The position numbers were made by a program, and so were the translations under genes. The notes below the pieces were generated by a model. It saw only the letters and a list, made by a program, of their open reading frames with translations. It had not been told where the DNA came from and searched no databases. Below, piece after piece: positions 567 to 14,904 of a stretch of DNA of 14,904 nt. The stretch is taken from NCBI GenBank assembly GCA_020853375.1, contig JADYZA010000177.1:1-14904 (forward strand), given 5' to 3'. How positions within the stretch are numbered: the first letter of the stretch is position 1; the number at the start of each line of letters is the position of its first letter. The stretch comes from Verrucomicrobiota bacterium. Its GTDB lineage: Bacteria > Verrucomicrobiota > Kiritimatiellia > Kiritimatiellales > Tichowtungiaceae.

Positions 567-587
567 TTTTTACCTGTTTACATTTCG

Positions 588-1574: not shown

Positions 1575-1597
1575 TTTACAGATCCTTTTCTGCGGAA

Positions 1598-1640
1598 CAA
1601 AACAAACAAAAAGCCCCCTAAGCATTCTGCTTAAGAGGCT
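1598..1640 (-). terminator. Intrinsic terminator after rplQ
   Basis: On the minus strand, 26 bases past the rplQ stop, a 12-bp stem (AGCCTCTTAAGC with GCTTAGGGGGCT, two G-U pairs) closes a five-base AGAAT loop. It is followed by TTTTTGTTTGTTTTG. The stem is 1612-1623 with 1629-1640; the T-rich tract is 1598-1611. It should end the ribosomal transcript before pta, whose ATG lies 24 bases beyond the tract, unless readthrough is used. Confidence 0.85.
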
Positions 1641-1665
1641 CTTATCATAGGAAACTCTCCGAGAC

Positions 1666-2046
1666 TTACTTTTTAATTTCAGCCGGTTCGGAAGCTTCTA
1701 CCCACTCAAGAATCACCATCTCGGACGCATCGCTCATCCGCTGTCCCAGCTTGGTGATCCGCGTGTAACCGCCAGCGCGTCCGGCAAAACCGGGAGCGAT
1801 GACTTCAAACAAGGCTTTAACCTGTTCGGGCTGCTTGATCGTGGCCAGCGCCTGACGGCGGGCGGCCAGTGTTCCGGCCTTGCCGAGTGTAACCATCTTT
1901 TCAGCCAGCGAGCGAGTCGCCTTGGCTTTGGCAATGGTGGTTTTGATACGACGCTCAGCAATCAGGCTGCACACCTGATTCGCCAACATGGCGTCGCGGT
2001 GGGCGCCTGTGCGGCCAAGCTTAACTGTTTTCTTAAGATGTCTCAT
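1666..2046 (-). CDS. rplQ: 50S ribosomal protein L17
   Basis: L17 is a large-subunit protein near the peptide exit tunnel. The 126-residue product begins MRHLKKTVKLGRTGAHRDAM, matching the diagnostic L17 opening (RH..KLGR...HR.A), and contains TTIAKAKATRSLAEKMVTLG and a C-terminal GGYTRITKLGQRMSDASEM block, where bacterial L17 has GGYTRI.K...R.GD.A.M. Length is normal. A GAGGG ribosome site precedes the ATG. It is the last gene of the ribosomal cluster, 21 bp after rpoA, and is followed by the terminator, the same rpoA-rplQ ending found in most bacteria. Confidence 0.97.
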   Translation of the reverse strand: MRHLKKTVKLGRTGAHRDAMLANQVCSLIAERRIKTTIAKAKATRSLAEKMVTLGKAGTLAARRQALATIKQPEQVKALFEVIAPGFAGRAGGYTRITKLGQRMSDASEMVILEWVEASEPAEIKK

Positions 2047-2067
2047 GATAACCCTCGTTTTATAAAA

Positions 2068-3075
2068 CTATTCAACGTCTTTGGCCAACGGCTTCAGCAG
2101 ATCCGCATCAAATGTCATGCCGAGCGACAGGCCCATATCGACAATCTTCTGCTTGATCTCATTCAGCGATTTCTTACCGAAGTTGCGGTACTTGAGCATT
2201 TCGGCTTCTGTCTTCTGCGCCAGCTCGCCGACCGTAGTGATATTGGCGTTGTTGAGGCAGTTGGCAGCGCGAACACTCAACTCAATTTCGTTCACACTGA
2301 TATTGAGTTTCTTGCGCAGATCTTCTTTTTCGATATCAATCTGCTTTTCGCTGGCTTCGAATTCAATCAGGTCTTTGTCGTAGCTGACAAAGATATCGAG
2401 ATGGTGGCGCAGGATGGCGGCGGACATGGTAAGCGCATCGTCCGGAGTCAGACGTCCGTCGGTCCAAATTTCGATCGCGAGCTGATCGTAGTCCGTGCGA
2501 CGACCGACACGGCAGGAGCCGACATCGTATTTAACACGGGCGACTGGGGAGAAAAGTGAGTCGATCGGAATCACACCGATTTCCTGTTCCGCCTTCTTAT
2601 TTCCTTCCGCCGGGCAATAACCCCGGCCGACGCGAGTTTCGATCTCGACTTCAAATTTCCCGTTGGTGTCCAACGTGGCAATGTGGTGGTCAGGATTCAG
2701 CACGACAACACTGTCGTTGACCTGAATATCTCCTGCGGTGACTTCGCCAGGACCCTTAACGCTGATTTTCAGGCGCTGGGGTTCACGGGTATAGGACTTC
2801 AGCAAAACCTTTTTCAGGTTGAGCACGATATCGGTGACATCTTCTACAACGCCGGGAAGGCTGCAGAATTCGTGTGGAGCGCCAGTGATTTTAACGGATG
2901 AGATCGCGGTACCTTCCAGCGAGGAAAGCAGAACGCGCCGCATGGAGTTACCGATGGTGCGGCCATAGCCGGCTTCAAACGGTTCGGCGATGAATTTGCC
3001 ATACGTGGCAGTGGATGCGGTTTCGTCTTTGACGACCCGCTTGGGCATTTCGAAACGACCTAGTCTGATTGGCAT
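2068..3075 (-). CDS. rpoA: DNA-directed RNA polymerase subunit alpha
   Basis: Alpha subunits dimerise to start RNA polymerase assembly and contact promoter UP elements and activators. The 335-residue protein has the N-terminal domain, with GYGRTIGNSMRRVLLSSLEG (37-56), TDIVLNLKKVLL and VNPDHHIATLD. A linker then leads to the C-terminal domain (about 260-335), with ELSVRAANCLNNANI and KYRNFGKKSLNEIKQKI, the helix-hairpin-helix DNA-binding part. The ATG at 3075 has a GGGAG ribosome site. A second Met nine residues in (MPKRVVK) is a possible alternative start without an equally good site. It lies 67 bp after rpsK; the usual intervening rpsD (S4) is absent. Confidence 0.97.
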   Translation of the reverse strand: MPIRLGRFEMPKRVVKDETASTATYGKFIAEPFEAGYGRTIGNSMRRVLLSSLEGTAISSVKITGAPHEFCSLPGVVEDVTDIVLNLKKVLLKSYTREPQRLKISVKGPGEVTAGDIQVNDSVVVLNPDHHIATLDTNGKFEVEIETRVGRGYCPAEGNKKAEQEIGVIPIDSLFSPVARVKYDVGSCRVGRRTDYDQLAIEIWTDGRLTPDDALTMSAAILRHHLDIFVSYDKDLIEFEASEKQIDIEKEDLRKKLNISVNEIELSVRAANCLNNANITTVGELAQKTEAEMLKYRNFGKKSLNEIKQKIVDMGLSLGMTFDADLLKPLAKDVE

Positions 3076-3142
3076 TGTCTTTTTCTCCCAGAACCGGGCA
3101 TTAACCGGCTCATATGGTTAGTTTATCTATTTGCTGATTCGC

Positions 3143-3652
3143 TTAAACGCGCCGCTGTTTTCTTGGGCGGCAACCGTTATGCGGAACCGGCGTGGTATCC
3201 TTGATTGCGGAAACACGAAGCCCAGCAGCCTGAATCGCGCGTACAGCCGACTCGCGGCCTGCACCCGGCCCCTGCACCCGGACTTCAACTTCGTTCATTC
3301 CGTGAGCCATCGCAGCCCGCGCAGCTTCTTGAGCCACGGTGGTGGCGGCAAAAGCTGTACTCTTGCGGGAACCTTTGAACCCGCAACGACCTGCGCTACT
3401 CCAGGAAATTACCTGCCCTCTCATGTCGGTAAGCGACACGATGCAGTTATTAAAAGTGGTTTTGATAAAAGCGATTCCGTACGGGACATTTTTCGCACCT
3501 TTTGCACGACGCTTCGGTTTGCCGTCGTCTGCAGCAGGAGCCTCTTCGATTTGAGCGAAAATATCTTTCTGCCGCGGCTTCTTGGTTTCTTCGGCAACGG
3601 CAGGAGCCGCCGCGGCGACAGTTTCTTCTACAGGTTTGGTTTCTTCAGCCAT
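3143..3652 (-). CDS. rpsK: 30S ribosomal protein S11 with acidic N-terminal extension
   Basis: S11 helps form the platform of the small subunit near the mRNA exit. The body, from about residue 50, is canonical: [48 protein letters not shown] and [15 protein letters not shown] at the end. The protein is 169 residues, against about 129 in E. coli. The excess is an N-terminal tail of roughly 45 residues rich in Ala, Glu, Lys and Pro. The ATG at 3652 has an AAGGA ribosome site, so the tail appears genuinely translated. The C-terminus reads RPRKQRRV, where many bacteria have RPPK(K/R)RRV. It starts 22 bp after rpsM. Confidence 0.96.
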
Positions 3653-3674
3653 GAATCGAATCCTTGGTTATAAA

Positions 3675-4091
3675 TTATTTCTTCGGAGCGGGAGCCGTGA
3701 CTTTAGCGGCTGAGCGGGCGTCTTTGCCGCGAACCGCACCCACGGTACGACGGGCACCTTTACGGGTACGGGCGTTTGTCTTCGTGCGCTGACCGCGAAC
3801 AGGAAGGCCACGGCGATGACGGGTTCCACGGTATGAGTTGATGGAAATCAGACGGCGAATGTTCTGCCCGATTTCACGGCGAAGATCTCCTTCGATCGTG
3901 TAATCCGCACGAACCACGGCGGTCAGTTTGGTAATGTCTTCGTCAGTCAGATCGTCCGCCTTTTTCGCGGGATCCAGACCAGCTTTGGCAATCACTTCGC
4001 GGGAAGTGGTCAGGCCGAGACCGTAAATGTAAGTCAAAGCGTATTCGAGGCGCTTTTTACCGGGGATATCAACACTAAGTATGCGCGGCAT
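3675..4091 (-). CDS. rpsM: 30S ribosomal protein S13
   Basis: S13 sits in the head of the small subunit and contacts P-site tRNA and the B1 bridge to the large subunit. The product starts [26 protein letters not shown] and contains [42 protein letters not shown] split across residues ~70-112, the diagnostic S13 core. At 138 residues it exceeds the common ~118-125 by a lysine- and alanine-rich tail ending APAPKK. An AAGGAG ribosome site precedes the ATG at 4091. It lies 20 bp downstream of rpmJ. Confidence 0.97.
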
Positions 4092-4111
4092 ATAAAACTT
4101 GCTCCTTAAAA

Positions 4112-4228
4112 TTAACCCTGACGCTGTTTGTGACGCGGGTTGCGTTTGTTAATCACGTAAACACGCCCTTTACGACGCACAATCTTGTCGTCAGCGCTAA
4201 TCTTTTTAACTGATGCCTTAACCTTCAT
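4112..4228 (-). CDS. rpmJ: 50S ribosomal protein L36, cysteine-free form
   Basis: This 38-codon gene encodes [20 protein letters not shown] followed by [18 protein letters not shown], a full-length L36 (typically 37-38 residues). L36 is a small large-subunit protein at the base of the stalk. The usual CXXC...C...H zinc ribbon is lost: the cysteine positions are Ser/Ala, Asp and Asn, leaving only the histidine. That marks the zinc-independent (C-minus) L36 type. An AGGTGA ribosome site lies just before the ATG, overlapping the end of infA (7-bp gap). The infA-rpmJ-rpsM order is the classic bacterial arrangement. Confidence 0.95.
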
Positions 4229-4235
4229 AGTTCAC

Positions 4236-4442
4236 CTAAATACTAATTCGCCCCACATTCATACTGTAAGGCGACATTTCCACCTTCACAAAACCGCCCG
4301 CTTCCGGCCCTTTTTTCTCCCAGTCTTCCGTGGCAATGTAAGCCGTAAACCGATGTCCATTGCCTAGTACTGCGCGAAAAGCGTGACTATCTATCACGGC
4401 CTCCAACTGAGCGTCCAGTAAAATAGTCTCACATTCGTCCAT
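4236..4442 (-). CDS. infA: Translation initiation factor IF-1, divergent
   Basis: IF-1 is a small OB-fold (S1-like) protein that occupies the ribosomal A site during initiation. The 68-residue product keeps the IF-1 frame: an LEAVIDSHAFRAVLGNGHRFTAYI strand set, here at about residues 13-36 (family pattern V.E.L.N..F.V.L.NGH...A.I), and VKVEMSPYSMNVGRISI at the end (family V.VELSPYD...GRI). The family loop SGKMR...IRILPGD is replaced by TEDWEKKGPEAGG, with far fewer basic residues. Position directly before rpmJ supports the call. No Shine-Dalgarno sequence is seen before the ATG at 4442 and no in-frame upstream start exists before a stop, so this start is firm. It appears to be the first gene of the operon. 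Confidence 0.82.
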   Translation of the reverse strand: MDECETILLDAQLEAVIDSHAFRAVLGNGHRFTAYIATEDWEKKGPEAGGFVKVEMSPYSMNVGRISI

Positions 4443-4457
4443 TTTTAAGAGCGGCCC

Positions 4458-4485
4458 ATCATACTGACCCGCCCCCCCTGTACAA
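4458..4485 (-). promoter_or_regulatory. Candidate sigma70-type promoter for the infA-rplQ operon
   Basis: On the minus strand TTGTAC (4480-4485) and TATGAT (4458-4463) are separated by 16 bases. The spacer holds a run of seven G. Transcription would begin near 4451, about 9 bases before the infA ATG, giving an almost leaderless message, which fits the missing ribosome site. It is the best match in the divergent gap but not proven. Confidence 0.45.
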
Positions 4486-4507
4486 GCTTCAATTCCATAA
4501 ATTTAAC

Positions 4508-4526
4508 TTTTCCAAACCTTGGAAAA
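4508..4526. repeat. Palindromic repeat, perfect copy (site 1)
   Basis: TTTTCCAA and TTGGAAAA flank a three-base ACC spacer, a perfect 8+8 inverted repeat in the gap between infA and pdxH. It belongs to the family TTTCCRANNNTTGGAAA that recurs through the window. Confidence 0.85.
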
Positions 4527-4539
4527 ATCAGGCATCATT

Positions 4540-4556
4540 TTTCCAGCGTTTGGAAA
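4540..4556. repeat. Palindromic repeat, one mismatch (site 2)
   Basis: TTTCCAGCGTTTGGAAA is the second copy in the same gap, 13 bases after the first. Its right arm (TTGGAAA) ends 4 bases before the pdxH ATG. Its GGA is the only visible ribosome-site-like element for that gene. Confidence 0.75.
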
Positions 4557-4560
4557 CCCA

Positions 4561-5172
4561 ATGGACCGCCCTATACACAACCAGAAACTGTTTGATTTTC
4601 CGGACGCCGGAAAGGATCCAGCCCCTCTATTCGACCGCTGGTTCACAGAAGCCCTGAAAGTCGATCCGCAAAACGCCGCCGTCGTGGCGCTGGCAACCGC
4701 CTCTTGCAAAAACCGCCCCTCTCTACGAATGGTTCTTCTAAAAGGATACGGTGAAAACGGATTTCTCTTCTATACCAACTACGAAAGCCGGAAGTCCGCC
4801 GATCTTTCCGAAAACCCAGCCGCCGCCATGACGTTCTGGTGGCCTTGGCATGAACGGCAAGTGCGGATTGAAGGGGAGATTGAGAAAATCAGCGCCACCG
4901 ACTCCGATGTCTACTTCGCAAACCGTCCACGCGAGAGTCAGCTGAGTGCGTGGGCATCGCCGCAAAGTAGTGTGATTGGCTACCCGATCGCGCTCGACGA
5001 ACTGCGTGAGCGATTCGGCCAAGAAAAAATTCCGCGCCCGGAAAACTGGGGCGGATTCCGGCTCGTTCCGGAAATCTTCGAGTTCTGGCAGGGCCGCGCC
5101 AACCGCCTACACGACCGTATCCGTTTCACAAAAATGGATAGCGGATGGACCATCGATCGGCTCGCGCCATGA
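4561..5172 (+). CDS. pdxH: Pyridoxamine 5'-phosphate oxidase
   Basis: PdxH is an FMN-dependent oxidase that makes pyridoxal 5'-phosphate from pyridoxine or pyridoxamine 5'-phosphate in the cytosol. The 203-residue product shows the family blocks in order: APLFDRWFTEA (21-31), PSLRMVLLKGY (53-63) for FMN contact, FYTNYESRKSADL (70-82), RQVRIEG (99-105), RPRESQLSAWASPQSS (122-137), RPENWGGFRLVPEIFEFWQG (159-178) and the C-terminal RLHDRI and RLAP. A TTG at 4519 in the same frame lies inside a palindrome and would add 14 residues unlike the family, so the ATG at 4561 was chosen. There is no strong ribosome site; a GGA in the adjoining palindrome may serve. The stop overlaps the next start by four bases (ATGA). 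Confidence 0.95.
   Translation: MDRPIHNQKLFDFPDAGKDPAPLFDRWFTEALKVDPQNAAVVALATASCKNRPSLRMVLLKGYGENGFLFYTNYESRKSADLSENPAAAMTFWWPWHERQVRIEGEIEKISATDSDVYFANRPRESQLSAWASPQSSVIGYPIALDELRERFGQEKIPRPENWGGFRLVPEIFEFWQGRANRLHDRIRFTKMDSGWTIDRLAP
4597..4613. repeat. Palindromic repeat variant inside pdxH
   Basis: TTTCCGG-ACG-CCGGAAA is a perfect 7+7 inverted repeat with the same geometry as the TTTCCAA family but with CCGG in the inner positions. It is read as FPDAGK within the PdxH N-terminus. Membership in the family is inferred from the shared arms and spacing. Confidence 0.55.
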
Positions 5173-6527
5173 GAAACTCTGCGCTTCTTCTCCTGCCGCT
5201 ATTCCTCTGCGCCGGATGTTCTACAACCGGACGCCAAGTGACCTATGACAATACCGTCCAGGTCGCTCGACGTCCGCTGAGCGGAACATACGAATTCGGC
5301 TGGCGCGTAAAAACATTCTGGACGGAAGAAGTTACCTCACTCTGGCGGCGTAATATCAGTCTCCGTCTGCTGAACCTGCGGGATATTCCTGAATTATCCG
5401 GCTCTTCCTGCATGAAGCGCGAGGTTATGGCTGAATGGCTTCAGGATAAGAGCGGCCCACCGGTTCAAGGCTCCGGCCGCCTTCTACTTAACGGAGAAAA
5501 CTTTTTTCCAAGGCTTGGAAATTCCATCAACGCCGCCACGAACCGAATCCTTTTCAAAACCTATTTGTTCGACAACGACGATGTCGCAAAAGAAGCCGCC
5601 GATCGGTTGAAGGCTCGTAGCCATGACATTGACATCCGCTTGCTCTACGACTCCGGCGGAACCCGGCTTTCGTGGCAAACTGACGCTCCGTCACTGCCAA
5701 CGAATTATGTTTACGAAGTCGATGATATGATCCGGTATCTGGAAAAAGATTCTGGCATCACATTGCGCCGTGCGATCCACACCCTGCTCACCTCTGAACA
5801 CTCCAAATACATCATCATCGATCACACGGTTGCTTACTTCGGCGGAATGAATATCGGTCGCGAATACCGCTACGACTGGCGCGACGCAATGTTTGAGCTC
5901 ACCGGACCCGTTATCGATGCGCTTGAAAACCGTTTTGAAACCGCGTGGACGCTCGCCAGCGGAGACACCTCAACCCTCTTTAAGCTACCCAAAGACAATC
6001 ATCCCGGCGGCGGAGATTTATACCTGATAAAAACAACCCCGCTCCATGCGCACATCTACAAAGGACAACTGCGCGCGATCCGGAATGCCAAGCAGTGCAT
6101 CTACGTCGAAAACCCCTACCTGTGGAACGTATCCATTGTCTATGAACTCTGCGCGGCGCGCAAACGCGGCGTCGATGTGCGCGTCACCATTCCGCAAAAC
6201 GTCAATCACGGCATCGGAGTCGCCGCCAATAAACAGACGGTCAATTGGCTGCTCGACCACGGCGTCCGCGTTTTTGTTTATCCAGGCATGACGCACGTCA
6301 AAGCCGCCATCTATGACCAGTGGGCTTGCTTCGGATCGGCTAACTTCGATGACCTGAGCCTGCATAAAAACTATGAGCTGAATATCTTCACCGACAATCC
6401 GGACATTGTCCGGCAGGTCAAAGTGGATTTACTTGAAAACGGACAACAGCTTTCGAAGGAAGTTTTCAACGCCGAAGAAATCAGCTGGATAGACATTTTT
6501 ACGGCTCAAGCCGCGCAGTACTTGTAA
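5169..6527 (+). CDS. Phospholipase D-family lipoprotein, cardiolipin synthase-like
   Basis: The 452-residue protein carries two HxKxxxxD motifs of the phospholipase D superfamily: HSKYIIID (His211, Lys213, Asp218) followed by GGMNIGREY, and HVKAAIYD (His376, Lys378, Asp383) followed by GSANFDDLSLHKNYELN. Two such motifs with the downstream GG.N and GS.N.D patterns are typical of bacterial cardiolipin synthases (ClsA/B/C types), which join phosphatidyl groups of membrane lipids. The N-terminus is a lipoprotein signal: a charged MRN, a leucine-rich core and CAGC with Cys17 as the likely lipidation site, though the -3 residue is Cys rather than Leu. The chosen ATG overlaps the pdxH stop by 4 bp, suggesting translational coupling. 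Exact substrate is not certain; other PLD-type phosphatidyltransferases or nucleases are possible. Confidence 0.85.
   Translation: MRNSALLLLPLFLCAGCSTTGRQVTYDNTVQVARRPLSGTYEFGWRVKTFWTEEVTSLWRRNISLRLLNLRDIPELSGSSCMKREVMAEWLQDKSGPPVQGSGRLLLNGENFFPRLGNSINAATNRILFKTYLFDNDDVAKEAADRLKARSHDIDIRLLYDSGGTRLSWQTDAPSLPTNYVYEVDDMIRYLEKDSGITLRRAIHTLLTSEHSKYIIIDHTVAYFGGMNIGREYRYDWRDAMFELTGPVIDALENRFETAWTLASGDTSTLFKLPKDNHPGGGDLYLIKTTPLHAHIYKGQLRAIRNAKQCIYVENPYLWNVSIVYELCAARKRGVDVRVTIPQNVNHGIGVAANKQTVNWLLDHGVRVFVYPGMTHVKAAIYDQWACFGSANFDDLSLHKNYELNIFTDNPDIVRQVKVDLLENGQQLSKEVFNAEEISWIDIFTAQAAQYL
5505..5521. repeat. Palindromic repeat inside the PLD-family gene
   Basis: TTTCCAA-GGC-TTGGAAA is a perfect copy of the dispersed palindrome, lying within codons for FPRLGN just ahead of the first catalytic domain. 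Confidence 0.8.
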
Positions 6528-6545
6528 CCCATCGCATGGATTTCG

Positions 6546-7859
6546 CTAGCCCGGCTTTATTCCGCTGTCGATCTTGCGCACCACAGCCTCCGCCGTCCGG
6601 TTCCGCCGCACCTTACGCACCAACACATCGATGCCGTCCGTCCGGATTGAATCGCCGCACCGCGCGGATGAATTACGCACACGATCCACCCAATCGGCAA
6701 ACGCCAACTGAGGTTCCACACCTTGGAAAATCGAGTCACCCAAAACATTCCGTAAACTCTCGATCGTCACACCGCCACCAACCAGCCAGCCATCGCCAAT
6801 CGGATGCATGTGCGCCGGCAAGTGATCGTATTCATCCCGAATATCGCCGACAAGTTCCTCCACGATATCTTCCATCGTAAGCAGGCCAAGAACGGTTGAA
6901 TCATCCATCACCAGCGCAATATGAACCCGGTCACGGATCATGTCGGTCAGCGCCTTGGCCAACGTTGTTTTCGACGCGATCCGCGATATCGGACGGATAA
7001 TTCCGCTGAGGCCGGAACCTGACGGATCAACCTTCAGCGCGGTCACGATATCTTTAAAGGTGACATAGCCATCGATGGTTTGTGAATCGCCCGCCACCTT
7101 GCAAACCGGATAGCGCGTGTGCATGTGCATATGGGCTTCAATCAGCGCATCCATCATGCTCGCGCCAGCGGGAATGGTCGAAATATCTTTGGCCGGAACC
7201 ATCGCCTCCGCCACGGTTCTGGCTGACAGTTGTACCGCCGACATAACGATTCGTTCTTCCATCGGCCCAATAATGCGTGTCGCCCGCGCCAGAGCCGTCG
7301 CGGCCCGCAGTTCAAGCAAACCGGTACGGTCGTCCTGAGCGCTCTGTCCCTTGAATCCGCCCTGCCCGGCTCTCACCAAATGCTTAACCACCGCTTCGAA
7401 AATGACGATTACCGGACGGAATATCCGCGCGACGATATTCATCGCAGGAGAAAGCGCCAGCACGACTGCTTCCTTGTTATTGATGCCGATCATCTTCGGA
7501 ACCAGTTCCGCAAAAATAATTGTCGCCGCGCTCAGTGGAATCACAAAAAGAAGCAGCGACAAAAATCCGGCCAGTCCGGCCGACACTCCCGGAATCGCCT
7601 CAAGCTTTGGCGAAAGCCATTGATCTATGCCGGCGCCGCCGGTGGCCGCCGCGATCGCGCCAGCCAACGTGATTCCCAGCTGAATCACCGCCAGACTGGC
7701 TTCCAGCCGGTCTTTCATATACGCCGCGCTCCGCGCTCCGCGCCGGTTCGCATTCACCAGCACCTCCAGCCGCACACGCGACACCGAGGCCAGAGCCATT
7801 TCATAGGCTGCGAAAACGGCATTCACCGCAAGCATCAGCAGAATAATAATCCATTCCAT
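6546..7859 (-). CDS. CNNM/CorC-family membrane protein (DUF21, CBS pair, CorC_HlyC domain)
   Basis: The 437-residue product has the three-part CNNM/CorC (hemolysin C-like) plan. First comes a DUF21 membrane domain (about 1-170) with hydrophobic segments near 2-25, 58-78, 95-118 and 133-158 and the signature IIFAELVPKMIGI (114-126). Next comes a CBS pair (about 215-345) with AEAMVPAKDI, the H-M-H-rich stretch before TRYPVC, GYVTFKDIV and GLLTMEDIVEELVGDI. Last is a CorC_HlyC domain (about 355-432). Such proteins act in the cell membrane and are linked to magnesium or cobalt efflux and resistance; the ion here is not shown by the sequence. It converges on the PLD-family gene with 18 bp between stops and no clear terminator. 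A weak GGAACGG ribosome site precedes the ATG. A palindrome copy lies in the CorC_HlyC coding region. Confidence 0.9.
   Translation of the reverse strand: MEWIIILLMLAVNAVFAAYEMALASVSRVRLEVLVNANRRGARSAAYMKDRLEASLAVIQLGITLAGAIAAATGGAGIDQWLSPKLEAIPGVSAGLAGFLSLLLFVIPLSAATIIFAELVPKMIGINNKEAVVLALSPAMNIVARIFRPVIVIFEAVVKHLVRAGQGGFKGQSAQDDRTGLLELRAATALARATRIIGPMEERIVMSAVQLSARTVAEAMVPAKDISTIPAGASMMDALIEAHMHMHTRYPVCKVAGDSQTIDGYVTFKDIVTALKVDPSGSGLSGIIRPISRIASKTTLAKALTDMIRDRVHIALVMDDSTVLGLLTMEDIVEELVGDIRDEYDHLPAHMHPIGDGWLVGGGVTIESLRNVLGDSIFQGVEPQLAFADWVDRVRNSSARCGDSIRTDGIDVLVRKVRRNRTAEAVVRKIDSGIKPG
6713..6729. repeat. Degenerate palindromic repeat inside the CorC-like gene
   Basis: GTTCCACACCTTGGAAA matches the TTTCCRANNNTTGGAAA family except at two left-arm positions. 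On the gene's own strand it is read as IFQGVEP, in another frame than the copies in pdxH and the PLD gene. Confidence 0.5.
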
Positions 7860-7994
7860 AAAAATCCGTTCCCGGCGTTACGCCAGACAAAGCCCCGTTC
7901 AGCCGGAACCTGCTCAGATTAAATCCATTTCAGGAAAGTTCTTCCAGACAAAACCGGATGCGGTAAGCGGCCGCGTGAAAACAAACTGAACGAA

Positions 7995-9368
7995 TCAGCC
8001 GTTTTTCATGTACGTCAATCCGAGCGCTTGCAGAACAGCGGAGATGATGAAATTGAACGGTTTGTTGAAGTGCGGCAAGAAATACACATCCGTCATGGCC
8101 AGTTCGAGCAGGCTCATCCGCTTCTGAATCGCCAGCGACAGATAAAAAATGCACTCGGTATGACTGGTTTCGCCGTATGATCCAATTTGCGCGCCCACCA
8201 AACGGAGAGTTTCCTTTTCGTAAATCAGCTTAACGCCGACCTGCTCTGTGTCGTTCATGAACTCGGGCCGGTCGTTGTCCGCATAGAAGGAGCTCGCCAC
8301 GTTCAGTCCGGCGGCGACAGCCGCCGTTTCGCTCAGTCCAGTACTCGCCAGTTTATTCCCGAACACGCAAATCGCGTTGGTGCCGGTAATGCTTTCGAGC
8401 CGGACCTGTTTCAGTCCGTTAATCTGGCTGGCGGCCACCACACCGCCTTTGACCGCATTGGTCGCCAGCGCCACATGGCGGTAGGTTCCGGTCGCAGCGT
8501 GATAGATCGCTGCAGCATCGCCGATTGCGTACACGTCCGGAATCGAAGTTTGCATCGTGGCATCCACTTTCAGCGCGCCGTTTTCCAGCTTATCCGCTTT
8601 CGGTAACAGTGCGGTGTTCGGCTTGAACCCAACGCATTGCACAACGAGATCGGCATCGAACTTCCCGTGGTCGGTCACAATCTGCTTCACCTTGCCGTCG
8701 CTACCGCCGACATATCCGGTAAGCCGCGCGCCCAGTACCAGATTCACGTCGGCGAGACGGATGTCCTTTTCGAGCCGATCGGTGAATTCCTTATCGAAAT
8801 ACGCCGGAACCACCCGCTCCTGCAAATCAACCAGCGTCACTTTCTTGCCGCGCTGATGATAAGCTTCGGCCAGCTCAATGCCGATGTATCCGGCGCCGAT
8901 GATCGCCACGCTCTTAATCTCCGGTTCGCCCGCCTTGGCGATCAGTTCCGAAGCGTGCTGGAACAGTTTGCAGACATAGATGTTCTGCAAATCTCGGTTT
9001 TCAACCTTGAAATCCACGGGCCAGGAACCTGCCGAGTAGATCAGCTTGTCATAGGAAACGGCTCGCTCTTCGCCGGTTTTCAGATCCCTGGCGATCACTT
9101 CTTTCTTGTCCGTATCAATCCGCACGACCTCGGTGCTCATGTACACCTCAGCCCCGAGCCGCTCCAGCTCGTCGCAATCCGAATAAAACAGATCGTTCAC
9201 ATTGTGAACCACACCGCTGACAGACAGGGCGATGCCGCAGCCAAGAAACGAGATATTGTCGTTGCGGTCAAACGCCACAACCTTGTGATCCTTGTTCTGC
9301 GACAGCAGTGTTCGGATAGCAGATGTTCCCGCATGATTCACCCCGACAACAACAACCTTGTATTCCAT
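7995..9368 (-). CDS. nox: NADH oxidase-type FAD-dependent pyridine nucleotide disulfide oxidoreductase
   Basis: The 457-residue protein fits the NADH oxidase/CoA-disulfide reductase group. It has an FAD-binding start VVVVGVNHAGTSAIRTLL (5-22), a single redox cysteine in NISFLGCGIAL (38-48, Cys44), an NADH-binding GAGYIGIEL (158-166) with acidic Asp181, a second FAD motif VYAIGDAA (279-286), and a C-terminal dimerisation domain containing DVYFLPHFNKPFN. That tail, the His12 in the first motif and the total length are typical of water-forming NADH oxidases, which reduce O2 to water and regenerate NAD+. In an anaerobe this would be oxygen defence. CoA-disulfide or polysulfide reductase remains an alternative, since these share Cys44. 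A GGGGGA ribosome site precedes the ATG at 9368. It lies 128 bp after the ABC-F stop. Confidence 0.88.
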   Translation of the reverse strand: MEYKVVVVGVNHAGTSAIRTLLSQNKDHKVVAFDRNDNISFLGCGIALSVSGVVHNVNDLFYSDCDELERLGAEVYMSTEVVRIDTDKKEVIARDLKTGEERAVSYDKLIYSAGSWPVDFKVENRDLQNIYVCKLFQHASELIAKAGEPEIKSVAIIGAGYIGIELAEAYHQRGKKVTLVDLQERVVPAYFDKEFTDRLEKDIRLADVNLVLGARLTGYVGGSDGKVKQIVTDHGKFDADLVVQCVGFKPNTALLPKADKLENGALKVDATMQTSIPDVYAIGDAAAIYHAATGTYRHVALATNAVKGGVVAASQINGLKQVRLESITGTNAICVFGNKLASTGLSETAAVAAGLNVASSFYADNDRPEFMNDTEQVGVKLIYEKETLRLVGAQIGSYGETSHTECIFYLSLAIQKRMSLLELAMTDVYFLPHFNKPFNFIISAVLQALGLTYMKNG

Positions 9369-9496
9369 GACTTCCCCCTAGAAAAATTCGACTTTCAGCC
9401 CCGCTTTAGCGCCCCGGAGCAGATGTGAATGGAAAGTACTACCGCGCCGGTCATATTTGCAAGAGTTCTTCCGTGCCTTTTGCAGACATTGCTTGT

Positions 9497-11095
9497 TTAG
9501 CGCGTCTTTTGAGCTTTTTTCCAGGCTTCGAATTCGTCCAGCGTGCCGCGATAGTCGATGATTCCATGCTCGGTGACTTCAAGAATCCGCGTGGCCAGCG
9601 TCGCGATAAAACGGTGGTCGTGCGAAACAAAGATGAGCGTGTGGGGAAACAGCGAGAGGCCGTAGTTCAGCTCTTCGATGGATTCCAAATCAAGATGGTT
9701 GGTCGGCTCGTCCAAAGCTAAGACATTACCGCCCTCCAGCAGCATTTTTGAGATGATCAGCCGCGCCTTTTCGCCGCCGCTGAGCACGCCGGTTTTTTTC
9801 AGCACGTCCTGACCCTTGAACAGCATCTTGCCCATGAACGAACGTAACTCGACTTCGGCGGTTCCGGCGTCGGCAAAGCGGCCCAGCCAGTCCAGCGCGG
9901 GCGTTTCAGCATTCAGAAGGGTTGAGGAATCCTGCGGAAACAGACTGACCTGAACGGTTTCGCCGAACAGAACCTGTCCGCTATCGCTCTCCAGCTGTTT
10001 GCAAAGAATGTTGAGCAGTGTCGTTTTGCCAATCCCGTTTTTACCCACAATCGCCACGCGCTCTTCCGGCCCGATCGTGCAGGAAAAGTCGCTGAACAGG
10101 GATTTGTCATACGCCTTGGAAATTGCCGTCGCCTCAATCACTTTGTCGCCCAGCCGTTTTTTCGGTTTAAAACGAATGAAGGGCGATACCCGGCTGCTGG
10201 CTTTGATTTTCACAATCTCCAGTTTTTCGAGCGTCTTTTTTCGCGAGGTGGCCTGTTTCGCTTTGGAGGCGTTGGAGCTGAACCGGGAGATAAACGCTTT
10301 TAGATCGTTCGCCTGCCGTTCAACTTTCTGGTTCTGCTTTTCCTGCAACTCGCGCGCTTCAAGGCTGGCGATGGTGAAATCATCATAGTTTCCAGGGAAC
10401 AGGCGAATCTCGTGAAAATCCAAATCGGCGATGTGAGTGCAAACCTGATTCAGGAAAAAGCGGTCATGCGAGATCGTGATGATCATTCCTTTATAGTCCT
10501 GGAGCAACTCCACCAGCCATTCAATCGACTCCATGTCCAAATGATTGGTCGGCTCGTCAAGCATCAGTAGATCGGGCTTGCCGAAAAGAACCTGCGCCAG
10601 CAGAACGCGCAGTTTAAACCCGCCCTGCAAAACCGTCATACTTTGTCCAAACAGGTCTTCGGTAAAGCCCAGCCCGACCAGCAGTGTAGCCGCCTCGGAT
10701 TCCATCGTATAACCACCCGCTTCGCCGAAATCGTGCTCAATATGGCTGCACCGATCATGTTCTTCGTCGCTCAGCTCATCTTTTGAATAAAGAAGTTCTC
10801 GCTCGCAATGCAACGCCCACAGCTTGGGATTTCCCATGCAGACGGTGTCGAGAATTGTGTACTCATCAAACGCGGAATGATCCTGACGGAGATACCCAAG
10901 CGTACAGCCGGGGCCAATGGTGACCGTTCCTTCGCTCGGCTCCAGCTGTCCGGTCAGAATCTTCATAAACGTCGACTTGCCGGAACCGTTTGCGCCGATC
11001 AATCCGTAGCGGTTGCCGGGAACGAACTTCACCGAAACGTCTTCAAACAGCGCTGTCTTGCTGAAGCGCATCGTGATTTTTGAGGTTGTAATCAT
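9497..11095 (-). CDS. ybiT: ABC-F family ATPase, YbiT-like
   Basis: Two tandem ATPase domains without membrane segments identify an ABC-F protein, a family that binds the ribosome E site and modulates translation. Walker A motifs are GANGSGKST (34-42) and GKNGIGKTT (351-359). Walker B motifs are LLMLDEPTNHLD (176-187) and VLALDEPTNHLD (458-469). The second signature is normal (LSGGEKAR, 438-445), while the first reads LQGGFKLR (156-163), a deviation also seen in E. coli YbiT. The opening TSKITMRFSKTALFEDVSVKF, spanning residues 4-24, and the linker SRFSSNASKAKQATSR (270-285) and KASSRVSPFIRF (298-309) closely resemble YbiT as remembered. Length (532) is as expected. The ATG at 11095 matches the family start; the ribosome site is weak. 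It is divergent from the 279-residue gene. Confidence 0.93.
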   Translation of the reverse strand: MITTSKITMRFSKTALFEDVSVKFVPGNRYGLIGANGSGKSTFMKILTGQLEPSEGTVTIGPGCTLGYLRQDHSAFDEYTILDTVCMGNPKLWALHCERELLYSKDELSDEEHDRCSHIEHDFGEAGGYTMESEAATLLVGLGFTEDLFGQSMTVLQGGFKLRVLLAQVLFGKPDLLMLDEPTNHLDMESIEWLVELLQDYKGMIITISHDRFFLNQVCTHIADLDFHEIRLFPGNYDDFTIASLEARELQEKQNQKVERQANDLKAFISRFSSNASKAKQATSRKKTLEKLEIVKIKASSRVSPFIRFKPKKRLGDKVIEATAISKAYDKSLFSDFSCTIGPEERVAIVGKNGIGKTTLLNILCKQLESDSGQVLFGETVQVSLFPQDSSTLLNAETPALDWLGRFADAGTAEVELRSFMGKMLFKGQDVLKKTGVLSGGEKARLIISKMLLEGGNVLALDEPTNHLDLESIEELNYGLSLFPHTLIFVSHDHRFIATLATRILEVTEHGIIDYRGTLDEFEAWKKAQKTR

Positions 11096-11264
11096 GGCTG
11101 TCCAATCCCGCGTGAAACTGAAAAATTGAAAATGAGCGCCGTGTATAGCAGGAACTCCCGGAAGAGCCGACTGCTAATTGCCCCGAATTTTTAAAGGAAG
11201 TTGCCGCCGCAGAGGTGACATCTTCTGCCGACTGTTGTACGATGCCGCCCTTTACAACAAGCCG

Positions 11265-11284
11265 TGTATGCAGAAATGCATACA
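11265..11284. promoter_or_regulatory. Perfect 8-bp inverted repeat upstream of the 279-residue gene
   Basis: TGTATGCA and TGCATACA flank a GAAA spacer, 33 bases before the ATG at 11318. The position suits an operator or a small hairpin in the leader; it sits a few bases after a TTTACA that could be a -35 box. No regulator is identified. Confidence 0.4.
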
Positions 11285-11317
11285 ACAGGTTAAATTTTAA
11301 CAGAAGGAGCTTACATC

Positions 11318-12157
11318 ATGCTTACATTGCTGATTTCTATCATTATATCCGCCGCAACGGTCACCGCCTGCACCGTTTATCATGTCAGTTCGGGCGGAGA
11401 AATTTTCGGGGGAATCGTCGGACTCCTGATCCCTCAGTTCTCAATCGGATATTTAGTCCGGAAAAAAATTGTAGCGGTTCAGGAAGAGCTTCAGGAAACG
11501 CTCGCGAATGGTCAGAAACAGGTGAACCGGAAAATTCAGCTGTTTCAAACCCGGCCCGGTGGAAACATCAAACAGTTGCAACGCCAGATTGAAGGCGACC
11601 AGAAAACGATCATCACCCACGCGCTCGCCTTCACCAAACGCTTTGAACCCTTCAAAAAATGGAACCTGTTAATGGGTCGGCAGATTGACTCCATGCGCTT
11701 GCAGTTTTCCTACCAACTGAAGGACTTCGCAACCGTCGATAAACTTCTTGCGTCCGGAGGACTGTTCACCGGCCCGATCATGATGGAACCCATGATGGTC
11801 GCCATGAAAATCGCCCGCCAATACAAAAACGGCGATGCGGCGGGCGCCGAAAAAACCTTCAAACGCCGCGTGAAATGGTTCCGTGGAAATCGCGGCACCC
11901 TGCTCTACGGACTGATGTCCTGGATTTATATGCAGCAAGGCGAGGCCGAAAAAGCGCGCCTCCTTCTGGCCAAAGCCAAAGAAATCACCGGCGACAAAAC
12001 CCTCGCCAGCAACTGGGAACTGCTTTCGAACTGCAAAGACGCCCAGTTCTCAAACATCGGACTAGGCGATGAATGGTACGGTCTCTATTTAGAAGCCCCG
12101 CCAGCACCCAAACAGCAGAGAATGCACGGGAACGCCCACGGCGGACGTAGATTTTAA
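11318..12157 (+). CDS. Unrecognised 279-residue membrane-anchored protein with TPR-like C-terminal region
   Basis: I do not recognise this family. The N-terminus has two hydrophobic helices (about 2-21 and 28-47, the second starting after SSGGEIFGG) and then RKK, predicting a membrane hairpin or signal-anchor. A polar, glutamine-rich stretch follows (52-95), which could form a coiled coil. Residues ~130-240 are helical, with patterns such as NGDAAGAEKTFKRR and QQGEAEKARLLLAKAKE that look like tetratricopeptide repeats, suggesting a scaffold or interaction role. The strong AGAAGGAG ribosome site supports the ATG at 11318. The last codons (GGRRF and stop) coincide with the conserved start of the composite repeat, so the original C-terminus may have been altered. 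It is divergent from the ABC-F gene and converges with the uroD-like gene. Confidence 0.8.
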   Translation: MLTLLISIIISAATVTACTVYHVSSGGEIFGGIVGLLIPQFSIGYLVRKKIVAVQEELQETLANGQKQVNRKIQLFQTRPGGNIKQLQRQIEGDQKTIITHALAFTKRFEPFKKWNLLMGRQIDSMRLQFSYQLKDFATVDKLLASGGLFTGPIMMEPMMVAMKIARQYKNGDAAGAEKTFKRRVKWFRGNRGTLLYGLMSWIYMQQGEAEKARLLLAKAKEITGDKTLASNWELLSNCKDAQFSNIGLGDEWYGLYLEAPPAPKQQRMHGNAHGGRRF

Positions 12158-12227
12158 AGGGAAAGTCCGCCCCAGAGCTTTTTCCAGACATTGGAGCCGA
12201 GGCGCAGAGATTTCCAAACCTTGGAAA
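12142..12227. repeat. Diverged copy of the composite repeat
   Basis: This block begins CGGACGTAGATTTTA, matching the start of the 14.6-kb repeats with one base change. It contains TTTCCAGACATTGGAGC (12181-12197, degenerate palindrome). Bases 12196-12227 match 14641-14672 at 28 of 32 positions, all four differences being transitions, and include a perfect palindrome TTTCCAA-ACC-TTGGAAA (12211-12227). Its middle is unrelated to the other copies. A 7-bp inverted repeat GGCGGAC/GTCCGCC (12140-12146, 12165-12171) overlaps the start; with the short T run after it this could act as a weak terminator. Confidence 0.75.
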
Positions 12228-12246
12228 TTTTTATCGTCACACCTGA

Positions 12247-12296
12247 GCCAATGTCGAAAGAGGCTGTCGCCGAAAGCGACAGCAAACGACATTGGC
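12247..12296. other. Nested two-stem inverted repeat in convergent gap
   Basis: An outer 10-bp stem (12247-12256 with 12287-12296, GCCAATGTCG/CGACATTGGC) encloses an inner 8-bp stem (12263-12270 with 12276-12283, GCTGTCGC/GCGACAGC) around a CGAAA loop. Both stems are perfect. It lies 12 bases beyond the uroD-like stop, between convergent genes, and lacks a T tract. It could be a bidirectional transcript end, a processed hairpin or a repeat module. Confidence 0.75.
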
Positions 12297-12308
12297 CGGA
12301 TACCCGGC

Positions 12309-13529
12309 TCAATAAAACTCGGCGATGACTTCTCGGGTGAGTTTCACCCACTCTGATATTCTTGTGGTGTCTTTTTCCACTGTCTCGATATCTTTCAACG
12401 TAACGTCAAACACCGTGTCTTTGAGAACCTCAAAATCGCGACGGAGGGACTGTCTCACATTTTCCTTGTTGTATCCGGCGGCCAGCAATGCGGGGTTCGG
12501 ACGGTAACTTATGACATAATCGCGGCCGATCCGTTCCGCGCATTTCTTTACGTCAGCAAACGGGGAAACCGCGATGCGTCGAAGATTCGGTATTTTCCGA
12601 AGCATGCCTATCTTATTGGTCAGGTCTTCGCAGCAGCCGTAGGAGACAAGTCCGAACTTGCTCATTATCGGCATCTGATAATGCAGCATGAATTCATCGT
12701 GCATTTCAGGAGAAACAAGCGTGAATTCCTGCGCGGCGGTAAAATTCCATAACTGCTTCCTCTTTATGCCGTTCACATTGGGTTGAGGATCAAGCAGCTC
12801 CTTTGCGTAAGGCATGGCTTGGTTGTATGAGGACGTGCTGCCGATATCTCCGGCGGCTTCCGCCTGATCATGCGTCCGCAATACCCCATCACTCATGAAT
12901 TTTAAAAGCCTGTGAAGCTCTTCCGGGCTTTCATACATGTCCATCATTATGTTCTCGATGCCGCGCAGATGCCCTAGAGATGTCGATATGTCGGCGTAGG
13001 CCCCCCAATAAGCGGGTCCTCTAGCAACGTCTATCGGCATAATATCGCCGATTAGATCCGTAGCTTTTTCGACCAGAAGCGCCGTCTGTTCCTCATCAAT
13101 TTCATGAAAAGGGGCGCGCAGCGCGTCCATATCCTCAAGGGTCTTCAGGAAGTAATCGATCTTAAAGGATTCCAGCGTTTCGAGCTTCCCCGCGAAATGG
13201 CATTTGAGCTCAACCCCCCATCCGGAGCATTTGTGTATCGCTGGAAGGGTATACCAAGGCTCAATAATACAGTCATCGCCGAAGTTCGAACGGAAAAGTT
13301 CCTTTTTAAAAAACGTCTCCATGGCCTTGCATAACGGATCTGTACATTCCGTCCGAGATTCCGGCATTTCCAGCCAAGCGAAGGCTCTTACATAAACGAG
13401 CGGACGTGAAAATTCAAAACTGTTGTGTTTGCGCCAAAGATCCCGCCGTACGGCCTGTATGCCATCTGTTGCAATGTCCATGTACCGTTTTGCCAAATTC
13501 CGTACCAGAGTCTTTTCTCCGAGATTCAT
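12309..13529 (-). CDS. Uroporphyrinogen decarboxylase-like (URO-D domain) protein
   Basis: The 406-residue product resembles the URO-D/MtaA/CmuA fold group rather than true HemE. Many such proteins in anaerobes are methyltransferases acting on corrinoid cofactors. Recognisable parts are a substrate-pocket region PIDVARGPAYWGAYADISTSLG (165-186), LLKFMSDGVLRTHDQAEAAG (208-227), VSPEMHDEFMLHYQMPIMSKFG (272-293), VSYGCCEDL (295-303, Cys299-Cys300-Glu301, possible metal ligands) and a closing region with IPNLRRIAVSPFADV and DYVISYRPNP. It is longer than HemE (about 350) and lacks its typical N-terminal RQAGRY motif. A strong AAGGAG ribosome site fixes the ATG at 13529. It is divergently paired with an AraC regulator across 97 bp. 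Substrate and true activity are unknown. Confidence 0.8.
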   Translation of the reverse strand: MNLGEKTLVRNLAKRYMDIATDGIQAVRRDLWRKHNSFEFSRPLVYVRAFAWLEMPESRTECTDPLCKAMETFFKKELFRSNFGDDCIIEPWYTLPAIHKCSGWGVELKCHFAGKLETLESFKIDYFLKTLEDMDALRAPFHEIDEEQTALLVEKATDLIGDIMPIDVARGPAYWGAYADISTSLGHLRGIENIMMDMYESPEELHRLLKFMSDGVLRTHDQAEAAGDIGSTSSYNQAMPYAKELLDPQPNVNGIKRKQLWNFTAAQEFTLVSPEMHDEFMLHYQMPIMSKFGLVSYGCCEDLTNKIGMLRKIPNLRRIAVSPFADVKKCAERIGRDYVISYRPNPALLAAGYNKENVRQSLRRDFEVLKDTVFDVTLKDIETVEKDTTRISEWVKLTREVIAEFY

Positions 13530-13565
13530 GATCCGCTCTCCTTGTTTGTTTCAGATTTGCGTAAT

Positions 13566-13595
13566 ATAATAAAGGCCTACTATCAATGGGGTAAA
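13566..13595 (-). promoter_or_regulatory. Candidate promoter of the uroD-like gene
   Basis: On the minus strand TTTACC (13590-13595) and TATTAT (13566-13571) are 18 bases apart, about 37 bases before the ATG at 13529. The gap is markedly AT-rich. An AATGT/ACATT inverted repeat with a 9-base centre (13594-13612) overlaps the -35 side and could bind the divergent AraC protein; this is inference. Confidence 0.4.
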
Positions 13596-13626
13596 TGTAA
13601 TCTCATGACATTATTTTTGTGGTTTT

Positions 13627-14424
13627 ATGACTCTTCTCAAAGATTATAATTTCGCGATGAACTCCGCCGGAAAGGTCTTCTGCAGACCGGGCTGGCAATG
13701 GGATTGCCGCACGGCCCTCAAAGACTTCGACCTGTGGTGCATACTGGGCGGTCAGGGCGAAATGACGGTGGAAAAGGAAACTTACAAGTTATCGCAGGGT
13801 GACTGCTTCCTGTTGCATCCGGGTATACAATTCTTTGCCGACAACAAGCCTGAGGAGCCTCTTACCGTCGTATACACCCATTTTGATATTTTTAAAGACG
13901 GACGGAAAATCAGCGCTCTCAAAGAATCTCCCCTGCCCGATTTCCACAGAAAAATTCAAAACGTGCTGTTTTTCGAATCACTGCTTCAGAAAATGCTCGG
14001 ATGCTGGTATCGGAACGATACGGACAATGCAATCCTATGGCTCTCCGCCGCATTGTGCGAGGCAGGCGATGACACAGAAGAGAAGACCACGGGAAATAAA
14101 AGCAACTCATTGACGGAAACAGCAAAAGATCTCTACAAGACAATCAACGAACATCCTGAAGAAAAATATTCTCTGCGGAAAATCGCCAAAAATTGCGGAA
14201 CCTGCCCGGAACACTTCTCCAGAATATTTAAAAAGAGCACGAACTGTTCCTTCCGCGAAGCGGTAACCGCATCAAAAATCAGACGTGCGGAACTGCTCTT
14301 GAGCTCCACGGATTATTCAGTAACAAAAGTATCAGAGATTCTCGGATTTGGAGACATCTACCAGTTCAGCAAACTTTTCAAAAAGCAAACAGGCATGTCT
14401 CCGTCCACAATACGTCGAACATAA
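13627..14424 (+). CDS. AraC-family transcriptional regulator
   Basis: The 265-residue protein has an N-terminal cupin-like sensor domain (about 15-90) with GQGEMTVEKETYKLSQGDCF (43-62) and LLHPG (62-66), the usual AraC ligand-binding strand pattern. A helical middle follows. The C-terminal double helix-turn-helix covers about 165-264: YSLRKIAKNCGTCPEHFSRIFKK (first HTH, 181-203), then VSEILGFGDIYQFSKLFKKQTGMSPSTIRR (second HTH, 235-264), with the family's GF.D...F...FK...G.SP signature intact. It probably controls the divergent uroD-like gene and itself in response to a small molecule, possibly a sugar or a methylated compound. There is no good ribosome site; the ATG at 13657 (MNSAG) is an alternative start. 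It ends 32 bp before the convergent leuS fragment. Confidence 0.9.
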   Translation: MTLLKDYNFAMNSAGKVFCRPGWQWDCRTALKDFDLWCILGGQGEMTVEKETYKLSQGDCFLLHPGIQFFADNKPEEPLTVVYTHFDIFKDGRKISALKESPLPDFHRKIQNVLFFESLLQKMLGCWYRNDTDNAILWLSAALCEAGDDTEEKTTGNKSNSLTETAKDLYKTINEHPEEKYSLRKIAKNCGTCPEHFSRIFKKSTNCSFREAVTASKIRRAELLLSSTDYSVTKVSEILGFGDIYQFSKLFKKQTGMSPSTIRRT

Positions 14425-14455
14425 CACCTCTTGAAAGCGGCTTAGCGAGCGCCTC

Positions 14456-14566
14456 TTACGCTCCTGCGATGTTCACGAGACGACCCGGCGCCACCATGAC
14501 TGTTTTGATCGTTTCGCCTTCGAACCATTTCAGCACGGCTTCGTCGGTGATGCCGGTTGAATCGAA
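14456..14566 (-). pseudogene. leuS: 3'-terminal fragment of leucyl-tRNA synthetase gene
   Basis: Read on the minus strand, this segment ends TGITDEAVLKWFEG followed by ETIKTVMVAPGRLVNIAGA and a stop. Bacterial LeuRS proteins end with the same pattern: a helix, then a (G)K.(V/I)(R/K)KVI.VPG(R/K)L(V/L)NIV tail. Only about the last 37 codons are recognisable. Immediately upstream the frame runs into palindrome and repeat DNA (from 14567), and a stop at 14717-14719 closes it, so no full synthetase is readable here. Either the repeats split or displaced the 3' end of a leuS lying beyond the right edge, or this is a stray duplicate of the tail. LeuRS is essential, so an intact copy is expected elsewhere. 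Confidence 0.55.
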
Positions 14567-14567
14567 T

Positions 14568-14585
14568 TTTCCAGACATTGGGAAA
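14568..14585. repeat. Palindromic repeat with one extra base
   Basis: TTTCCAGACATTGGGAAA is a family member with a one-base longer centre. It marks the point where the LeuRS-like reading stops, and shares TTTCCAGACATTGG with the degenerate copy at 12181. Confidence 0.65.
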
Positions 14586-14606
14586 TGCTGCGAGGGTCGC
14601 GCACAA

Positions 14607-14729
14607 CGGACGCAGATTTTAGGGAGCCTCTCGCAAAGCCGCCAAGACGCAGAGATTTCCGAATCTTGGAAAAATGTAGTGTCGGCTCTGCGAGCCGATC
14701 TTCCGAACATTGGAAATTATACCGCCGCC
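14607..14729. repeat. Composite direct repeat, copy 1
   Basis: This 123-bp unit is repeated 175 bp further on with 121 of 123 bases the same. In order it holds CGGACGCAGATTTTAGGGA, a purine-rich block containing CTCGCAAAGCCGCCAAGACG, a palindrome TTTCCGAATCTTGGAAA (14656-14672), a perfect 7-bp hairpin TCGGCTC-TGC-GAGCCGA (14682-14698) and a second palindrome CTTCCGAACATTGGAAA (14700-14716), ending in CCGCCGCC. No coding potential was recognised. Confidence 0.9.
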
Positions 14730-14781
14730 GGCGTTACCGCAAAAAACAGCCGATTCTAAAAATCAGCGGTTGGCCCCTTTT

Positions 14782-14904
14782 CGGACGCAGATTTTAGGGA
14801 GCCTCTCGCAAAGCCGCCAAGACGCAGAGATTTCCGAATCTTGGAAAAATGTAGTGTCGGCTCTGTGAGCCGATCTTCCGAACATTGGAAATCATACCGC
14901 CGCC
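14782..14904. repeat. Composite direct repeat, copy 2 (reaches window edge)
   Basis: This is the second copy of the 123-bp unit, differing by two transitions: one in the hairpin loop (TGC to TGT, stem kept) and one just after the last palindrome. Its palindromes are at 14831-14847 and 14875-14891. A 52-bp unrelated stretch (14730-14781) separates it from copy 1. The match continues to the last base given, so the true right end is unknown. Confidence 0.9.

Follow-up and report, generated by a model that had tools for sequence, protein, structure and literature searches.

A 17-bp palindrome recurs through a 14,904-nucleotide stretch of a Verrucomicrobiota bacterium of the family Tichowtungiaceae (contig JADYZA010000177.1, positions 1 to 14,904 of the forward strand; hereafter the window), and in related genomes neighbouring copies of it stand a whole number of helical turns apart. 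This whole-turn spacing is the new fact and the main clue to the palindrome, and it was missed by an earlier description of the window made from its letters alone (hereafter the sequence-only reading). On balance we take the palindromes to be the sites of one putative dimeric, sequence-specific DNA-binding protein that would act cooperatively, or by bridging, on one face of the helix and would have an architectural role. Some little-known Kiritimatiellae have hundreds of near-identical palindromes of 17-19 bp, even inside genes.

The spacing was measured in unselected DNA of two genomes, the complete congener G009 and G003 (together 1.43 Mb), where neighbouring sites lie 21-22, 30-32, 40-43, 52-53, 62-63, 72-74, 83-84 bp apart and so onward. 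Taking a period of 10.45 bp, the 141 pairs separated by 18-130 bp give a resultant length R of 0.84, the 38 pairs at 130-250 bp one of 0.59 and the 57 pairs at 250-400 bp one of 0.64; control draws reach at most 0.28, 0.46 and 0.36 in the same three ranges. For this control the pairs formed by 100 palindromes of the same composition were pooled and size-matched draws were made 2,000 times. An earlier control that treated each palindrome separately was weak, with about 10 pairs each and R of 0.59-0.75 for some. When the distances themselves were jittered, consecutive pairs of sites with at most 2 mismatches beat 200 of 200 nulls at 18-70, 70-130 and 250-400 bp. At 130-250 bp the null was not exceeded (0.64 versus a maximum of 0.65), at 400-600 bp the value for all pairs is barely above it, and beyond 600 bp there is no phasing.

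Consecutive pairs that lie inside single open reading frames (ORFs) are also phased (n = 113, R = 0.79), and therefore neither gene boundaries nor promoters are required. The rule extends to weak sites found 18-130 bp from a strong one. Counting as in phase those within 1.5 bp and as out of phase those more than 3 bp off, 66 two-mismatch sites are in phase versus 1 out, 51 three-mismatch sites versus 3, and 65 four-mismatch sites versus 16. Because the weak sites near strong ones are in phase, the partners would seem to act together. Phasing persists in the site-poor genome G007 (12 pairs) and occurs in other families as well, in G048 and, in a small sample of 13 sites, in G134. Among 75 listed exact pairs, out of 446, 70 are in phase versus one third by chance. 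Two of the close pairs in the window, at 31 and 30 bp, are in phase.

The sites are far too numerous for chance. The assembly from which the window comes (1.55 Mb) holds 122 exact matches on the forward and 119 on the reverse strand, and 13 congeners hold 36-435 per strand; the reversed-pattern control gives 0 throughout. With up to 2 mismatches allowed, G009 and G003 contain 551 sites, versus a median of 3, a maximum of 12 and no exact copy for 40 control palindromes matched in composition. Sampling G009 in 60 chunks of 20 kb at even spacing gives 113 exact sites, 159 with 1 mismatch and 184 with 2; the reversed control gives 0, 0 and 8. The site is carried by 46 of 58 genomes of relatives, two of which (one of 7.4 Mb in 5 contigs, the other of 8.7 Mb in 6) have 69-92 exact matches. 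Elsewhere in the class the number ranges from 0 to about 1,040 copies (1,042 in G048). A stricter pattern, TTTCCAANNNTTGGAAA, is present in 59 of 387 genomes sampled from the phylum, with counts of up to 1,010, and in this sample counts above 1 are confined to genomes of the same class. The system is patchy within the class, with more than 1,000 sites in some genomes and none in many others. Two sites 31 bp apart occur in at least 108 stretches of a named sequence collection; the 80 such stretches listed are labelled mostly as metagenome-assembled genomes (MAGs) of Kiritimatiellae, 'Lentisphaerae' and Verrucomicrobia, while a few bear the label Spartobacteria or uncultured bacterium and one that of Bacteroidales. 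On this kinship the window belongs with the Kiritimatiellae. The sequence-only reading had made its observation of a dispersed palindrome answerable to a genome-wide count and a search of relatives. Both were run, and the observation survives, with a genome-wide excess over expectation and with copies in relatives. Literature searches by the site sequence and for palindromes in Kiritimatiellota found no paper; they did not cover other nomenclature or preprints.

Alignment of the copies gives the consensus TTTTCCAA-NSN-TTGGAAAA, with information dropping 1-2 bases outside the 17-mer. Of 181 exact copies, 176 have C or G as the central spacer base (109/113 in G009, 40/41 in G048 and 27/27 in G003), and the outer spacer bases are lineage-specific, with ACC and ACA dominant in G009 and GCC or GGC in G048. 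Mismatches concentrate at the outermost T and the innermost A while TTCC is kept, and the linkers between sites are not conserved. That the arms are conserved while the spacer varies had already been remarked from the window, and it is borne out in the orthologues of site-rich congeners, where the arms are 92% identical, the flanks 78% and the outer spacer bases 49%; in site-poor congeners the arms are 70% identical versus 75% for the flanks. These figures come from 60 site-by-genome comparisons that are not independent, because some loci overlap and some pairs enter in both directions. In 36 of the 60 DNA comparisons the alignment is free of gaps for 20 bp around the site. Of 21 distinct protein contexts for which a site-free homologue exists, 14 align without a gap, though not all of the 21 frames need be coding. 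Since most comparisons at both levels are ungapped, the examined sites mostly arise or decay by substitution in place, not by insertion. The pair upstream of pdxH in the window is kept with other spacers in G002 and G004 and is degraded but ungapped in G005. The site in the PLD-domain gene is present in G002; in G005, G007 and G008 it is absent, again ungapped, with an FPQFEE-type peptide instead.

Along the G009 chromosome the sites show no concentration at the origin (~1.4 Mb) or terminus (~3.4 Mb) inferred from skew, and the segregation signal that had been suggested for the palindrome is consequently not supported. By a crude ORF caller, 85 of the 113 exact G009 sites (75%) lie in ORFs versus 89% expected. 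Sites in ORFs favour the reading frame that gives the peptide FQxLE (183 versus 126 and 118), as if the tolerance of the protein filtered the sites.

We infer that a dimer of the putative protein recognises TTTTCCAA half-sites around a 3-bp spacer, and that dimers on neighbouring sites may touch, or be bridged, along one helix face, through side-by-side contacts at 2, 3, 4 and 5 turns and short loops out to ~400 bp. Such contact or bridging would account for pairs and arrays being kept at whole turns. As is established for looping repressors, a protein that bridges stiff DNA should space its sites by whole turns up to a few hundred bp, with the effect fading beyond. It is this pattern, whole-turn spacing that lasts a few hundred bp before fading, together with the in-phase weak sites, that leads us to bridging dimers. 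As sites occur in genes as well as between them, the role would most likely be architectural, that of a nucleoid protein addressed by sequence, from which local effects on transcription would follow. Their spread through genes chromosome-wide and their indifference to promoters likewise make architecture likelier than a regulon. Of the roles that the sequence-only reading had offered, a protein-binding site is strongly supported by the sequence-specific arms, the helical phasing and the in-phase weak sites.

The prevailing view of bacterial nucleoid proteins is that their specificity is weak; here the sequence alone suggests a strictly specific, helically phased system of sites running across a chromosome. 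We tentatively extend this to a sequence-addressed chromatin, in which one putative protein would read hundreds of palindromes, genes included, selection would keep them on one face over several hundred bp, and DNA architecture would bend protein sequences. The spacing of neighbours would then record the geometry of the site system, and from the in-gene sites one could read how DNA architecture exerts selection on protein sequences.

Several observations weigh against a bridging dimer. The consensus, at ~26 bits, is sharper than the 11-13 bits needed by a regulator with so many sites (a rough hand estimate), and such sharpness is also explicable by a drive such as DNA uptake. Family f2 (G014, G018-G020), unlike f1 and f8, has many exact single sites and few close phased pairs (336 exact sites and 5 pairs in G018, 112 and 0 in G014), and no phasing was seen in a small f2 sample of 11 pairs. 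Taken by itself, G003 gives no significant phasing in its bins above 70 bp, which hold 7-11 pairs. In the window, the 44-bp pairs 14656/14700 and 14831/14875 are 2.2 bp off phase. Two stretches (L247, 956-2720; L248, 390-2154) have arrays of four sites, in frame, within a gene predicted to encode a membrane protein, and some in-gene four-site arrays may be insertions. Finally, no candidate binder was found in the LacI and ParB_N censuses described below or in the ORFs beside site clusters, where 390 flanking ORFs show no recurrent regulator or gene family. The largest group among these ORFs (29 loci) proved spurious, its members being linked through peptides translated from the array sequences.

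Looping regulators display the same phasing, and a global transcription regulator with cooperative operator pairs, looping as AraC- or LacI-type proteins do and using the in-gene sites as auxiliary operators, has a small but appreciable chance of being the right explanation. It would suit the arrays upstream of mnmG and nadD and the ~2-4 fold enrichment, by class, of intergenic space. Yet promoters are not preferred: for exact sites in G009 the enrichment is 3.1 fold in convergent, 2.9 in tandem and 1.7 in divergent intergenic space, most sites lie in genes, and the last tenth of genes is mildly enriched. The absence of a recurrent gene family beside the clusters also speaks against a regulon. 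A census of LacI-family proteins had no hit in G003 (349 exact sites at 98% completeness), G001, G006 or G011; since G003 and G001 are rich in sites, LacI is out as a common partner, subject to MAG completeness. Each of 14 genomes of the genus has 0 or 1 match to ParB_N and no second ParB-type protein, and G010, 91% complete, has 427 sites and no match. This census rules out a second ParB, and with it a Noc- or KorB-like paralogue as the partner, subject again to MAG completeness. Mobile or hairpin elements spread by a RAYT transposase, comparable to repetitive extragenic palindromic (REP) sequences and bacterial interspersed mosaic elements (BIMEs), are extremely improbable. Y1_Tnp proteins do occur in 51 of 58 relatives, the assembly of the window has three Y1_Tnp genes, two of the three loci with a site in the surrounding stretch, and a Y1_Tnp-like gene of G025 contains one of the aligned sites. 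However, sites and Y1_Tnp counts are unlinked (1,042 and 2 in G048, 414 and 1 in G002, 427 and 2 in G010, 38 and 11 in G007, 81 and 11 in G011), and the ungapped orthologues and unconserved linkers described above point to substitution, so that the REP-like element raised by the sequence-only reading is not supported. Its other proposal, a hairpin of single-stranded DNA or of RNA, such as a terminator, is scarcely credible. Symmetry would let every copy fold on itself, and the slight enrichment in the last tenth of genes would fit. Among two-mismatch sites, 32 are symmetric versus 33.8 expected from independent half-sites, and double mismatches that restore pairing number 14 versus 20.6 expected; an apparent signal of compensation (32 symmetric versus a naive 16) vanishes once the observed mismatch positions enter the expectation. 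Because neither kind of double mismatch is in excess, the site is read as sequence and not as pairing. The mismatches at the outer and inner ends with TTCC kept, a 3' arm that ends in A and not U, and helical phasing, a property of double-stranded DNA, argue the same way, and the window has no Rfam match.

A DNA uptake signal, with natural transformation preferring site-bearing DNA and sites accumulating by point mutation and recombination, would explain the sharp consensus and perhaps a weak hint of fewer sites in low-GC chunks of G009 (of four chunks below 49% GC, three hold 1-4 sites and one 8; the mean is 7.6). Published uptake sequences (DUS/USS), as described in an excerpt of PMC1939737, evolve by point mutation in genes and in intergenic DNA, as these sites do, but they are non-palindromic and do not share the phased pairs with weak partners seen here; uptake does not predict that weak sites should be in phase with strong ones. 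ComEC, with matches in 263 of 288 genomes of the class, is too near-universal to discriminate, and because of this near-universality uptake keeps a place among the explanations. G161 has 162 exact sites and no ComEC match at 94% completeness, absence from a MAG being weak evidence. Taken together, uptake is an unlikely role for the sites. An element like the highly iterated palindrome HIP1, made by methylation-dependent repair, is very improbable: HIP1 is similarly abundant and patchy, but according to an excerpt of PMC4390886 it is an 8-mer tied to methyltransferases, whereas here there are 14-16 fixed bases in phased pairs of 17-19 bp sites. A phage origin was rejected, the exact doublet occurring in only 2 stretches of a viral collection (L249, L250), which may be phage, provirus or host DNA.

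A dimer that structures the chromosome through palindromes has precedents in matS/MatP, Noc sites and parS, which comprise tens of sites with a regional bias. The present sites differ in numbering hundreds, spread over the sampled chromosome, with at most one ParB_N match per congener; they resemble matS and Noc sites in being conserved above their surroundings, as the arm and flank identities show. REP/BIME sequences with RAYT are dispersed palindromes as well, and the difference here is the lack of any tie to Y1_Tnp counts. GalR is a LacI-family regulator, and we know of no genome-wide helical phasing for it. The 'mega-loop' of GalR in E. coli, in the excerpt of PMC5110547 used here, is alike in its dimer on palindromes, its interaction of distant sites and its proposed effect on chromosome structure; it differs in that LacI is absent from the site-rich G003 and G001. 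Helically phased strong sites that nucleate bridging are described for H-NS at proV in an excerpt of PMC5418058, but these are two sites ~10 turns apart in one operon with an AT-rich motif, versus hundreds of strict palindromes here.

In the window, 27 matches with at most 3 mismatches were found on both strands, whereas 200 dinucleotide shuffles gave 4.4 on average and never more than 11. The coordinates given for the copies by the sequence-only reading all check out. Exact plus-strand matches to TTTCCRANNNTTGGAAA start at 4509, 5505, 12211, 14656 and 14831; those at 4540, 14700 and 14875 have one mismatch to it, those at 6713 and 14568 two, and that at 12181 three. The sites and one look-alike are as follows.

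4509..4525, exact site with spacer ACC, left member of the 31-bp phased pair just upstream of pdxH
4540..4556, site with 1 mismatch to the pattern of the sequence-only reading, right member of the pair upstream of pdxH (31 bp = 3 turns)
4597..4613, CCGG-cored look-alike within pdxH, 3 mismatches
5505..5521, exact site with spacer GGC, encoding FPRLGN within the PLD-domain gene 5145-6527
6713..6729, weak site with 2 mismatches, within the CNNM/CBS gene 6546-7859 (minus strand)
12181..12197, weak intergenic site with 3 mismatches, 30 bp from the exact site at 12211
12211..12227, exact intergenic site with spacer ACC, between the convergent genes 11318-12157 (plus strand) and 12309-13529 (minus strand)
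14568..14584, weak site with 2 mismatches
14656..14672, site in which R is G, belonging to the first unit of a 123-nt repeat
14700..14716, 1-mismatch site, 44 bp from the site at 14656 and 2.2 bp off whole turns
14831..14847, second copy of the site at 14656 (repeat spacing 175 bp)
14875..14891, second copy of the site at 14700

The CCGG-cored variant at 4597, which had been counted with the others, is not conserved in orthologues from G002, G004 and G005 and is probably not a member of the site family; a match at 823, with 2-3 mismatches, is probably due to chance. The sequence-only reading saw no copies in the ribosomal, nox or ABC-F genes, which holds for this window at up to 2 mismatches.

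In G053 (family f13), in-frame TAG codons occur in three ComEC matches and one Y1_Tnp match and may reflect TAG recoding or pseudogenes. In the window, the gene at 12309-13529 (minus strand) encodes a protein of 406 amino acids with no Pfam match at 0.001, and it is divergent from an AraC-type regulator gene at 13627-14424 (plus strand). The contig ends in a tandem 123-nt repeat (14607-14729 and 14782-14904, 98% identical, 175-bp spacing) with two sites per copy. A motif, GCSRAGRCGCAGAG, stands ahead of three sites in the window, at 12196-12209, 14641-14654 and 14816-14829, and is found at 5 places in the genome of the window, including its contigs C189 and C202 (G000).

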